From assembly GCA_963971535.1 (NCBI GenBank), contig OZ020598.1, positions 88,426,985 to 88,490,984 of the forward strand: 64,000 bases of DNA. The letters are read 5' to 3'. Below, piece after piece: positions 999-63,986 of this stretch. Below the pieces are notes generated by a model, which had not been told where the DNA came from, did no database searches, and saw nothing but the letters and a program-made list of their open reading frames with translations. Both the position numbers and the translations under genes were made by a program. Every line of letters begins with the position of its first letter. The stretch's first letter is position 1. The DNA comes from Notolepis coatsorum (taxonomy: Eukaryota; Chordata; Actinopteri; Aulopiformes; Paralepididae).

Positions 999-1381
999 TA
1001 GGGATGTCCGATATTATCGGCCTACCGATATTATCGGCCGATATCGACATTAAAATGTGATATCGGAAAATATCGGAATCGGTTTTCAAAAAAAAAAAGA
1101 TAAAAATATATATATATTTCTATAACCTTTATTTACCCAGGCAAGCAAGTAAGAACAAATTCTGATTTTATTTATTGTCAAAAATATGCATAATGTTGTG
1201 TTAATTCCACAACAAGAGATATGTAATGTTAATTACCTGAAATTATTCCATTTTGTGGGGGGGGGGGGGACCCTGCATTAGGGATGCACCGATATGAAAA
1301 TTGGCCGCCGATACCGATTGTTCAACTAACACTATCGGCCGATACCGATACCGATACCGATATTTGTATATTTGTATATAA

Positions 1382-1413
<32 letters not shown>

Positions 1414-1814
1414 TTATTTTTTTAATGAAACTACTGTATATTTGTATGTGTATGTTTGTATTTGTAGGCCTCTTTACTTACTTAAAAAAAGGAAACATCA
1501 AGAAATATGTTTATGGTATCACTATCTCTCTCCCAGTATCGTCTTGCGGCCTGCAGAGGGATACTATTTTCTCAACCAGAGCTTTCAACCAATGAAATGG
1601 AACCATTCTTGCGGCCTGCAGCGGGATACTATTCTCTCAACCAGAGCTTTCAACCAATGCAATGGAACCATTTTGATTGACAGTCGATTCGGCCAATTAC
1701 GCCACACCGCTAGCACCCACCTCCCGCTTGCCGACCAATCGGCAAGCGTTTATACATTTTTCTACTTCCGGGCATGCCGCCATTGTTCTGTTTGCGAGAG
1801 CAGAACACACTTAA

Positions 1815-2560
1815 CGTAGCTACGTTAGCTGCCCGGCCCGCCGACCGGCGCTCCACGCATGACCAAATGAGACATAATGATTTTACTGCAACAAATGTTA
1901 TAATAAAACAAAGCCATTCTATACATTTGTCTGGTTGAAAACTTTATTAACAGATTGCAGAATGTGTAGTTGGGTACGGAATGAGCAACGGAATGGAACC
2001 GAGCTATGAACGGACTAACGGAGTAATGCCTTGTTTACTGCTATGTTCGGGTAAATAATATGCTTGTTATTGAACGTGTAACACTTCATTTTAACAGCAG
2101 ATACTTTCTTAAATGCCATCTTCCCGAGAGAGGGTGTTGACGGGGAGTTGTGTTATTAATAGCATTGAACAGCTAACCGAAAGCTAGCGTTAACTATTGT
2201 TAAAGGTTTAGCCATAACGTTACCTTGGCTAAAGTTGGGGGTATTCATAATGCAGCAATAATGACTGCAGACCTGCAAGCAAAGTACAGCAAGTTGACAA
2301 AGGAGTATTCCAACGCAAATCACATTTTCACCAGTAACGTTAGTCTTGCATCTAATAGCTAATAACGTAGCTACGTTAGCTGCCCGGCCCGCCGACCGGC
2401 GCTCCACGCATGACCAAATGAGACATAATGATTTTACTGCAACAAATGTTATAATAAAACAAAGCCTTTCTATACATTTGTCTGGTTGAAAACTTTATTA
2501 ACAGATTGCAGAATGTGTAGTTGGGTACGGAATGAGCAACGGAATGGAGCTAATGAACGG
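1815..2560. repeat. Internal direct duplication within the MITE
   Basis: About 190 bp starting GTAGCTACGTTAGCTGCCCG at 1815 recur from 2366 with very few changes. The sister copy at 37053-38516 has this block once. The duplication therefore arose in this copy after the families diverged, and it brackets the gene-like exon. Confidence 0.75.
2261..2314 (+). pseudogene. ppp1r21: Captured first-exon fragment resembling ppp1r21 (degenerate copy)
   Basis: Eighteen codons from ATG read MTADLQAKYSKLTKEYSN. The sister MITE at 38083-38136 reads MAADLQAKYSKLAKEYSN. That resembles the N-terminus of PPP1R21 (KLRAQ motif-containing protein 1), which in vertebrates starts with a short coiled-coil stretch ending ...LAQEYSK before the KLRAQ motif. 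In this copy GT after codon 18 is GC, two residues differ, and the frame runs into element sequence, so it is a dead fragment carried by a MITE. The assignment rests on recalled similarity of 18 residues; another coiled-coil protein is possible. Confidence 0.5.
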
Positions 2561-3015
2561 ACTCGGAGTAATGCCTTGCTGCTATGGGTAATAATAATAT
2601 GCTGATGTTATTGTCCGTGTAACACTAACTATATAACGCTAATGCCACAAAACGAATGCCTTGTTAATCATAAGTAGTTACTTTGATGCAGTAGATTGTG
2701 TGTGGGGGACGGTGGGCGTTGTGCAGGTAGGTCTCGAGTGAACTTTTTTTTTTTTGCCTTTTGACGCTACACAAATTGATGGGTATTTATCGGCGACTGC
2801 TATCGGCACATTTGAGCTTATCGGCCGATAGGCCGATAGCAGTCAACAAGGCACTTATCGGCCGATACCGATACCCGACCGATATATCGGTGCACCCCTA
2901 CCCTGCATATATCGGTATCGGTTGATATCGGTATCGGAAATTAAGAGTTGGACAATATCGGTATATCGGTATCGGTAAAAAAGGCAATATCGAGCATCCC
3001 TAGTTCCCATCCCTA

Positions 3016-3459
3016 ATCACGATACCGGTTCTAAAACGATACCACGGCAAAAACCTAAAACATCAGGTAAGGTAATGAAATATAATATTAGATGCAGAAC
3101 ATGGAACATTTCTTTATACTGTTATTTTATATAGAACATATTTGGCGTTGTTGAAACTTAATAATAAATAATAGAATGATTATATTACAGCTGCTGAGCT
3201 ATAGGCATATAGTTAATCTCCATCTTGTTATTATGTGTATTGTATTGTGTTATCTCTCCACTACACACAGTGCTTGTGCCAGCACAGGAGATAAGAGTTT
3301 CCTTTTGAATAAAGTAGGCTACACACTGTTAGTGCTTATGCCAGCACAGGAGATAAGAGTTTCCTTTTGAATAAAGTAGGCTCAGGAATCAGGATTGTTA
3401 AAGCTAATTAGCCTAGTAGTCCATGTCAAAAAGAGCATAGCTGCTTAAAAGCATTGAAC

Positions 3460-36937: not shown

Positions 36938-37052
36938 CATACAATGTATCCAAGCCTGTTGCTAAATGCTTATAAGCTATATAGATATTCAAATCAATAT
37001 CTTCCTTTTTAATAAAATAGGCTCAGGAATCAGGATTGTTAAAGCTAATTAG

Positions 37053-38516
37053 TAGGGGTGCACCGATATGAAAATTGGCCACGATACCGATACCGATTGT
37101 TCAACTAACACAATCGGCCGATACCGATACTTGTGGCAAAAAATAAGTATTTTTAATTTTTTTTGATATTTATTTTTTATTTTTTTAATGAAACTACTGT
37201 ATATTTGTATGTGTATGTTTGTATTTGTAGGCCTCTTTACTTACTTAAAAAAGTAAACATCAAGAAATATGTTTATGGTATCACTGATCCCTCTCCCAGT
37301 ATCGTCTGGCGGCCTGCAGAGGGATACTATTTTCTCAACCAGAGCTTTCAACCAATGCAATGGAACCATTCTGGCGGCCTGCAGCGGGATACTATTCTCT
37401 CAACCAGAGCTTTCAACCAATGCAATGGAACCATTTTGATTGACAGTCGATTCGGCCAATTACGCCACACCGCTAGCACCCACCTCCTGCTGTTCTTACC
37501 ACCAATCGGCAAGCGTTTATTCATTTTCTACTTCGGGGCATGCCGCCATTGATCTGCTTGCAAGAATGCGAGTCAAACTCAGAACCACAACAAGCTAATA
37601 CGTTAGCTGCCCGGCAGTGCCCGCCGACCAGCGCGCTCCACAGGATGGCCAAACGAGACACAATGATTTTACTGCAACAAATGTTATAATAAAACAAAGC
37701 CTTTCTATACATTTGTCTGGTTGAAAACTTTATTAACAGATTGCAGAATGTGTAGTTGGGTACGGAATGAGCAACGGAATGGAACCAAGCTATGAACGGC
37801 TTGCTTGCTATCTTCGGGTAAATACTATGCTGATGTAATTGAACGTGTAACTAACTATATAACGTTAATGCCACAAAACGAATGTTTGTGTCATTTTAAC
37901 AGCAGATACTTTCTTAAATGCCATCCTCCCGACAGAGCGGTGTTGATGGGGAGCTCTGATGGGTTCGCTTGGTTGTGTTATTAGCATTGAACAGCTAACC
38001 GAAAGCTAGCGTTAACTAATGTTAAAGGTTTAGCCATAACGTTACGTTGGCTAAAGTTGGGGCTATTCATAATCCAGCAATAATGGCTGCAGACCTGCAA
38101 GCAAAGTACAGCAAGTTGGCAAAGGAGTATTCCAACGTAAATCACATTTTCACCAGTAACGTTAGTCTTCTGCCTCCCGGCTATGAACGGACTCTGAGTA
38201 ATAATAATATGCTGATGTTATTGTCCGTGTAACACTAACTATATAACGTTAATGCCACAAAACGAATGTCTTGTTAATCATAAATAGTAACTTTGATGCA
38301 GTAGCTTGTGTGTGTGTGTGGGGGACGGCGGGCGTTGTGCAGGTAGGTCGCGAGTGAACTTTTTTTTTTTTGCCTTTTGACGCTACACAAATTGATGGTT
38401 AGTTATCGGCGACTGCTATCGGCACATTTGAGCTTATCGGCCGATAGGCCGATAGCAGTCAACAAGGCACTTATCGGCCGATACCGATACCCGACCGATA
38501 TATCGGTGCACCCCTA
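37053..38516. mobile_element. hAT-type MITE, gene-fragment-carrying family, copy 2
   Basis: Left end TAGGGGTGCACCGATATG, right end ATATCGGTGCACCCCTA, perfect TSD CTAATTAG at 37045-37052 and 38517-38524. The flanks joined together match the uninterrupted repeat at 3381-3412, a related empty site. The interior matches 1279-2900 without its internal duplication and keeps the better-preserved exon (38083-38136). Confidence 0.93.
38083..38136 (+). pseudogene. ppp1r21: Captured first exon resembling ppp1r21, with intact GT donor
   Basis: ATG opens MAADLQAKYSKLAKEYSN (18 codons), followed immediately by GTAAAT, a possible 5' splice site. Vertebrate PPP1R21, an early-endosome protein with an N-terminal KLRAQ coiled coil, starts with a similar stretch ending LAQEYSK before KLRAQ. 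I see about 11-12 identities over 17 aligned positions. The length of one short coding exon and the donor position fit a captured exon 1 with flanking 5' UTR and intron. Downstream codons read into intron-like sequence. It is unlikely to make protein on its own, but it could supply an alternative first exon if inserted upstream of a gene. Confidence 0.55.
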
Positions 38517-38524
38517 CTAATTAG

Positions 38525-62975: not shown

Positions 62976-63986
62976 CAGGGCTCTACGCTAACTTTCCCCC
63001 CAAAGAGCACACAAATGAAAAAATGTTGGAGCACACAAAGAAATTTAGGAGCACAGAAAGAAATTTAGGAGCACAGTGAGAAATGTTCAAATAACACAGA
63101 GTTTATTAACAAACTATTTATTACATGCATATTATACTGTGCGTTAGGGGTGTAACGATGCGACCTCACAATGATTAAATTCGATTACGATTCTTCAGGC
63201 AACGATTCAATGCATCATGAAATCTCTTCATTTGACCACGATTCGATTCGATACATTTTCTATCAGTTAATTCCCCCCAAAAAAATGTATACACAAATGT
63301 GGCTGGGGGAACTGATTCACATGAATGGACTATAGGTAAATACATTTTATTTAATTTTATTTTATTCCGATTCTAATCGATTCTAACATTTTCAAATTGA
63401 TGCAGTTGAATCGTCACATTAGGATTGATGCATTTCGATGCATCGTTACACCACTACTGTGCGTGTGTGTGCATACTAAGGGACAAAAATCTGTCCAATA
63501 GCACATACCACCAAAATCACACATTGGCCCATGCCTACTAGACGATAGCTGCTTTTGTATGTACATTTAACATTTACATTTAAATGTAATGTAAATGTAT
63601 GTTGTTGTAGTATAGCAGTATAGCTTAGTTAGAGTTAGCAGCTAACATTAGTTAAGGTTTTTAGCATGACGTGGGTATACTATACAGGAATGGTGAGGAT
63701 GCAAAGCATGTTAGACCATTGGACCCATTGCACATAGAAACAGCGTGACTCACGAGATGAGTTGTTACAGAGCTGTCAAACGCAGGGCTGAATAGCTAGA
63801 TGTCATAGCTTCTAAAATTTAAGGTCCGCACTGCTTTGTGTCTAATATGAAATGACAATTGTGCGTTGACACGCCCACTATGCAAAACTATTACTCTCAC
63901 ACTGTGCTCCTAAATGATTTTTCCGAGTTCGCACAAATCTATTTTTGGGGAAAATGTGAGTCAAATGCTCACACTGTAGAGCCCTG
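62976..63986. mobile_element. hAT-type element (CAGGGCTCTACGCTAAC)
   Basis: Right end TGTAGAGCCCTG. ATATACAG follows it (63987-63994) and precedes GGCTCTACGC on the left, so three bases (CAG) appear lost where duplication and terminus overlapped. AGGAGCACA repeats lie at 63028-63075. The interior 63600-63830 is paralogous to 38845-39045. It hosts the hAT at 63145-63456. Confidence 0.82.
63145..63456. mobile_element. Short hAT-type MITE (TAGGGGTGTAACGATGCGAC)
   Basis: Right end TTCGATGCATCGTTACACCACTA; perfect TSD CTGTGCGT at 63137-63144 and 63457-63464. Subtermini consist of GATTCGAT/ATCGATT strings. Confidence 0.93.

Follow-up and report, generated by a model that had tools for sequence, protein, structure and literature searches.

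The window, by which we mean the whole stretch of 64,000 nucleotides from Notolepis coatsorum analysed here, contains at 37053-38516 a 1,464-bp element that we name MITE-A (Table 1). Its assignment as a hAT-type MITE follows the form of its TIRs and target site duplication (TSD): the TIRs (TAGGGGTGCACCGATAT / ATATCGGTGCACCCCTA) are 17 nt long and 100% complementary, and the same 8 bp, CTAATTAG, flank the element on both sides. The longest stop-free stretch within it is 131 codons, by length alone too short for a transposase. Inside the element an ATG at 38083 opens a frame translating to MAADLQAKYSKLAKEYSN up to 38136, with GTAAAT directly after. These observations agree with a reading made earlier from the letters of this DNA (the sequence-only reading), which had described a hAT MITE with an exact TSD and, within it, an ATG that opens this peptide just before GTAAAT.

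Table 1. Coordinates of the MITE-A copies, their duplications and the ppp1r21-derived pieces in the window
Feature	Position	Strand	Details
Second MITE-A copy with ppp1r21 fragment, more diverged	1279..2900	+	TSD CCCTGCAT; exon 2261-2314; donor GC not GT
Target site duplication CTAATTAG, left	37045..37052	.	sequence
MITE-A, rearranged subfamily, with ppp1r21 fragment	37053..38516	+	perfect 17-nt TIRs, 8-bp TSD
Internal duplication, left copy (MITE-A segment flanking captured piece)	37790..37885	+	repeats D3 and D5
ppp1r21 upstream piece	37886..37990	+	host about -582 to -470 from ATG; 84.5% to C23:6664874-6664766
ppp1r21 5'UTR-side piece adjoining ATG	38028..38082	+	pairwise alignment, host from C23:6664363
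ppp1r21 exon 1 coding part	38083..38136	+	MAADLQAKYSKLAKEYSN; host MAADLQAKYSKLAQEYSK
ppp1r21 intron 1 start	38137..38170	+	donor AAC|GTAAAT vs host AAG|GTAAAT
Internal duplication, right copy	38181..38275	+	repeat comparison within element
Target site duplication CTAATTAG, right	38517..38524	.	sequence

A scan of the 3.42-Gb genome for the Pfam family KLRAQ (PF10205), in which 5 of 5 candidates were scored, gave a single match, on the minus strand of contig C23 at 6645461-6645610, covering model positions 32-81. Upstream of this match lie exon 1 of the host ppp1r21, which reads MAADLQAKYSKLAQEYSK followed by GTAAAT from C23:6664296 downwards, and exon 2, which starts LRAQNQVLKK. Host exons 1-3 joined match PPP1R21 chain 7nd2_A (PDB) over 90 aa with an E of 3e-34, the residues of exon 1 included. 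At the DNA level element and host gene are 90% identical over 120 columns (38046-38164, E 8e-41), and pairwise alignment extends the match to 38028-38170, covering the 5'UTR side, the exon and the start of the intron. A second matching block, at 37889-37988 (with a left edge of 37883 in the widest alignment), corresponds to sequence ~0.5 kb upstream of the host ATG (84.5%). Because ~380-400 bp of the host upstream region, including a tandem repeat, are missing from the element between the two blocks, the captured block is non-contiguous gene sequence. Over 60 nt the window exon has four differences from the host exon; two alter the amino acid (Q to K and K to N), and the second of these, a C for G, falls at the donor -1 position.

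Since the host ppp1r21 matches through upstream sequence, 5'UTR, exon and intron start, the likeness of exon 1 is not due to chance, and the window element and ppp1r21 have shared ancestry. The sequence-only reading had recognized the likeness to the start of ppp1r21 and had looked to a parental exon 1 with matching UTR and intron; that exon is the one on C23, where the upstream sequence matches as well, and the similarity of 38083-38136 to it is plain at the DNA level. With just 18 codons involved, one could still imagine a fortuitous resemblance, or a transposon that donated exon 1 to the host. Either is contradicted by DNA identity that runs on into UTR, upstream and intron sequence, by the presence of the host exon 1 peptide within the match to PPP1R21 in 7nd2_A, and by a MITE-A relative at C23:6694075-6695104 (TSD ATTTACAA) that is uninterrupted and without the gene segment; we regard both origins as practically excluded. 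Further relatives without the ppp1r21 piece are partial (C23:6684336-6684085 and window 31204-30934). With an internal host gene segment whose parent lies elsewhere, on C23, and a relative free of that segment, the ppp1r21-carrying MITE has the anatomy of a Pack-TIR.

The MITE-A segment at 37790-37885 that flanks the captured piece as a duplication is single in the empty relative, and its right-hand duplicate is missing from 5 other MITE-A copies compared. The duplication probably arose later than the capture. We had considered it as a scar of the capture and dropped this reading because those 5 copies are without it and have clean junctions. A separate 37-nt stretch of MITE-A (37718-37754) recurs at several sites around ppp1r21 and elsewhere in the window and is probably an independent dispersed repeat. 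The second copy in the window is 83-95% identical to the first in matching parts and has a larger internal duplication, the equivalent of 37599-37884 being repeated at 2372-2658. Elsewhere, 63145-63456 may be another small MITE, with TIR-like ends TAGGGGTGTAACGAT / TAGTGGTGTAACGAT.

The fragment is found at several thousand places in the genome. A DNA search of the genome gave 2,116 candidates, and each of the 40 scored matched at 97-100%. Counts by pattern are of overlapping sets and not additive: the exact 72-mer that runs from the 5'UTR to GTAAAT has 769 matches (358+411), a 64-mer from just before the ATG to GTAAAT 3,550 with <=3 mismatches (1,727+1,823), the upstream piece 983 with <=3 mismatches (495+488), the junction on the left side of the MITE-A capture 1,172 (585+587), and a stretch of the intron in one MITE-B subtype (see below) 57 (25+32). 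As a control these patterns were read backwards, which returned 0 places every time. The host-type donor AAG|GTAAAT lies within an exact 27-mer found at 1,544 places (739+805), the gene itself included; the exact full 64-mer of this class is present at 220 places (105+115).

The context of the fragment was studied in 30 copies (L018-L047), the first listed with an exact exon match, and the conservation of ATG and GT in 50 copies (L048-L097) chosen by exact match to the MITE-A upstream piece; all are on contig C1, and young copies are over-represented in both samples. The 30 exact-exon copies reveal three carriers. Fifteen have MITE-A sequence, 4 have sequence of a second family, MITE-C, and the other 11 contain parts of a third, MITE-B, both arms of which are near full length in 4 of the 11 (L025, L042, L043, L047); several of the other copies are ragged. 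The MITE-B TIR is TAGGGGTGYAACGGTAC, also given as TAGGGGTGTAACGGTAC, and the 8-bp TSDs are identical in 3 of the 4 copies (GTACCTGG, GTATACAG, GCTGCTAG), the ends of L042 being eroded. MITE-C has the ends CAGGGCTCGAGACTAAC / GTTAGTCTGGAGCCCTG; of its 4 copies, 3 are again flanked by identical 8-bp TSDs (CATACCAG, TGATGTTG, CTTGCGGC), and in L026 no 3' end was found. For MITE-A, 38 copies were examined and 17 have both ends, with an identical 8-bp TSD in 16, the window copy among them; only in L036 is the TSD off by one base.

Some copies have a more complex structure. L041 and L038 adjoin ends that we take to resemble further hAT MITEs, with complete ends found in neither. Within the intron part of its fragment, L041 has an insertion of ~930 bp (1595-2524) whose ends are complementary (GGGCCCTTTCTCACTCA) and which is probably a further small element with inverted repeats. 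Two MITE-A copies, L070 and L076, contain the ppp1r21 exon twice in tandem, at a distance of 415-422 bp, an arrangement that recombination between internal repeats would be expected to produce. L061 (minus strand, 2760-3047) has the donor AAG|GTAAAT and an intron that tracks the host to about +129, and adjoins on its 5' side the apparent end of another MITE (TTTATCGCCCCCAGCCCTA); it is a near relative of the 1,544-place AAG|GTAAAT class and not an exact 27-mer match.

Of the 15 non-A copies, 13 match the host from -640 onwards and 14 up to +1685, and one 41-bp host match falls outside that range (L032, +2487 to +2527). Six A sequences have 17-21 derived sites in common with B_L025, L042 and L047, and 14-18 with B_L043 and C_L035 (205-244 sites compared); these counts leave out the poorly aligned stretch 37995-38030 and supersede counts that reached 39 with it. 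The fragment being carried by three different TIR types, MITE-A, B and C might each have taken exon 1 of ppp1r21 from the gene separately. The 14-21 common derived sites outside the poorly aligned stretch speak against this, as do two features common to the aligned A, B and C copies, the gap in the upstream region and identical exon changes relative to the host, the latter point being partly selected for in copies mostly picked by exact exon match. For MITE-C separate capture is contradicted by its content, which includes parts of MITE-B's arms. We consider independent captures very improbable and favor a single capture.

For MITE-B, direct capture from the gene is the simplest reading. MITE-C encloses a MITE-B piece including parts of B's arms, without B's 5' end, and in the C copy L045 B's 3' arm reaches position 149 of 155. 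Because MITE-C encloses parts of MITE-B's own arms, the sequence comparison supports a transfer from B to C well. MITE-B also covers more of the host gene than the piece in MITE-A does, on both sides, and since A's piece lies inside B's stretch and derived sites are common to both, MITE-A probably acquired the fragment second-hand, from MITE-B. Since all of A's piece falls within host-derived sequence of B, A is without any MITE-B arm that would prove the direction.

The five MITE-A copies compared of the 15 (L019, L024, L028, L030, L031) have the same junctions: empty-A sequence to 777/780, MITE-B 219/223 to 651, and empty-A sequence from 795. Thus 14 bp of the empty element have been replaced by a fragment piece of MITE-B form, which matches 429 nt of MITE-B. 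Both partners have AATG at the left junction, as expected under template switching, which we infer to be the most likely mechanism. Host-like states relative to B_L043 and C_L035 are found in B/C only at 7-9 sites and in A only at 2-4. Relative to B_L025 and B_L042 they are nearly balanced (A only at 1-6 sites, B only at 1-7), and the core of B_L042 falls inside the A clade of a tree with supports from 0 to 0.97. This balance and the position of L042 suggest that exchange between A and B may have run in both directions.

The exon could be aligned in 48 of the 50 MITE-A copies (not in L056 and L059). All 48 keep the ATG and 46 the GT, a tally that the sequence-only reading had suggested making; the ATG-to-GT frame is open in 44, 41 are identical over 60 nt, and AAC precedes the GT in all 48. 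The 9-nt donor has a predicted U1 pairing energy of -6.8 kcal/mol in the host and -1.9 in the window copy, compared with +1.3 in the second window copy and -11.8 in the consensus, and 48% of the 3,794 GT 9-mers on the + strand of the window pair with U1 at least as well as the window copy. By this prediction the window copy is a poor 5' splice site; the strong site expected of a mobile first exon like HelibatN3 is not provided by its AAC|GTAAAT. The sequence-only reading had described a usable donor in this copy, which is doubtful because the donor is weakened to AAC|GTAAAT; AAG|GTAAAT is kept by another class. Since the donor has weakened in its lineage, the window copy is probably inactive as a first exon. 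On C1, one listed AAG copy has an A junction 211 bp upstream, and therefore some MITE-A copies may retain the strong AAG donor.

By cell count the diversity of the exon is low (2 of 1,498 cells, 0.13%, versus 0.4-1.4% in other regions), which hinted at selection on the exon. The hint failed: the 30 copies, a small sample, have 2 private exon changes versus 4.3 expected from the flanks (Poisson 0.20) and give no sign of selection on the exon.

The copies could supply a promoter, a start codon and a 5' splice site and so rewrite the N-termini of nearby genes, in the manner of the NUBPL Helitron in bats. The frequent ATG, GT and open frame in MITE-A copies would fit such a role, as would the 1,544 places, gene included, with the exact host-type context, and PMC4778049 provides an experimental precedent of the same anatomy in HelibatN3. 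Youth alone predicts the intactness, however, and private exon changes are not clearly fewer than expected. The ~380-400 bp missing from the upstream region and the predicted pairing of the window-lineage donor, which 48% of the GT 9-mers on the + strand of the window equal or exceed, also weigh against this role. As to a host gene in the window able to use this copy, the 20 of 391 ORFs tested against Pfam gave no match, which says little on short exons. On balance we find it unlikely that the copies act as mobile first exons. A wider form of the idea, equally tentative, is that a host 5' cassette (promoter side, ATG, exon 1, donor) would be a shared passenger among hAT MITE families, with the AAG class as a genome-wide reservoir of alternative first exons spliced into many genes; we give it a minor chance.

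We favor instead the following account of a passenger exon. A ppp1r21 fragment within about -640 to +1685 of the start codon, with internal gaps, would have been copied once into the non-autonomous hAT-type MITE-B. Internal pieces of MITE-B comprising upstream sequence, the start codon and the exon 1/intron 1 boundary would then have been copied into MITE-C and MITE-A, in the latter by replacement of the 14 bp of empty element, most likely through template switching during repair. Through transposase supplied in trans, the carriers would subsequently have multiplied to a total of several thousand places, with the exon travelling as a passenger whose donor weakened in the lineage of the window copy, leaving that copy probably inert. 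We consider this account, taken as a whole, highly probable. The sequence-only reading had proposed that an ancestral MITE captured exon 1 with its 5' UTR and part of intron 1 and then spread it; the content of the fragment and its spread (3,550 and 1,172 places, by exon and junction pattern) bear this out, and the proposal needs amending in that the captured block is not contiguous and MITE-A probably received it by an indirect route, not from the gene itself.

Plant Pack-MULEs, which have TSDs of about 9-bp, differ from the elements described here in this length, in belonging to the MULE superfamily and in their plant hosts. They are alike in being TIR elements with gene fragments (PMC8277862, in excerpt). 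The view of the sequence-only reading that Pack-type capture is rarely described for hAT MITEs of animals does not survive comparison with this animal survey, the excerpted text of which counts 370 Pack-TIRs, 208 of them hAT and few of them multicopy. The same excerpts mention 4 multicopy cases in frog and alligator, among them Pack-hAT-N8_XT (hAT-N8_XT), which carries the CAPSL 5'UTR in the western clawed frog and amplified into three chromosomes, plus a few fly Ssk-FB4 copies, and animal Pack-TIRs of which some are transcribed as chimeras. As far as these parts of the survey go, the present case resembles animal Pack-TIRs in being a non-autonomous hAT with a short fragment of a gene's 5' end, in the distinct TSDs at dispersed copies and in the template-switching origin proposed, and differs in its thousands of places, in that what is carried is a coding exon 1 complete with start codon and splice boundary, and in the three MITE families involved.

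Captured first exons have also been described in bats. According to excerpts of PMC4778049, the HelibatN3 Helitron of Myotis carries the NUBPL promoter, six codons and a splice donor, and the Helitrons of Myotis lucifugus hold captured promoters of 15 genes at 4,690 copies; an engineered assay in HeLa cells demonstrated splicing from the captured donor, and three transcripts of bats begin within NUBPL insertions. From these excerpts, HelibatN3 and the present elements are alike in placing the 5' end of a host gene, its first codons and a splice donor on a non-autonomous transposon. They differ in that HelibatN3 is a Helitron with splicing and chimeric transcripts demonstrated, whereas here a TIR element is known from its sequence and the donor of the window lineage is weakened. 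Among the matches listed in the open-access literature, we found no report of ppp1r21 carried by a transposon, nor of this case within hAT/MITE gene capture. Three features set the present case apart: how many places hold the fragment, that a small TIR element carries a coding first exon together with its splice boundary, and that a single fragment recurs in three MITE families.

In this genome small TIR elements have carried a protein-coding first exon, splice boundary included, to thousands of places, many more than are reached by the multicopy animal Pack-TIRs in the excerpts of PMC8277862. The fragment has apparently been relayed between transposon families, and scoring captures one family at a time would miss such a relay. 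Gene finders and RNA-seq mappers applied to this genome may call spurious copies of ppp1r21 exon 1. With thousands of natural replicates that carry either a strong or a weak donor, one could measure what a mobile first exon costs or how it is used.
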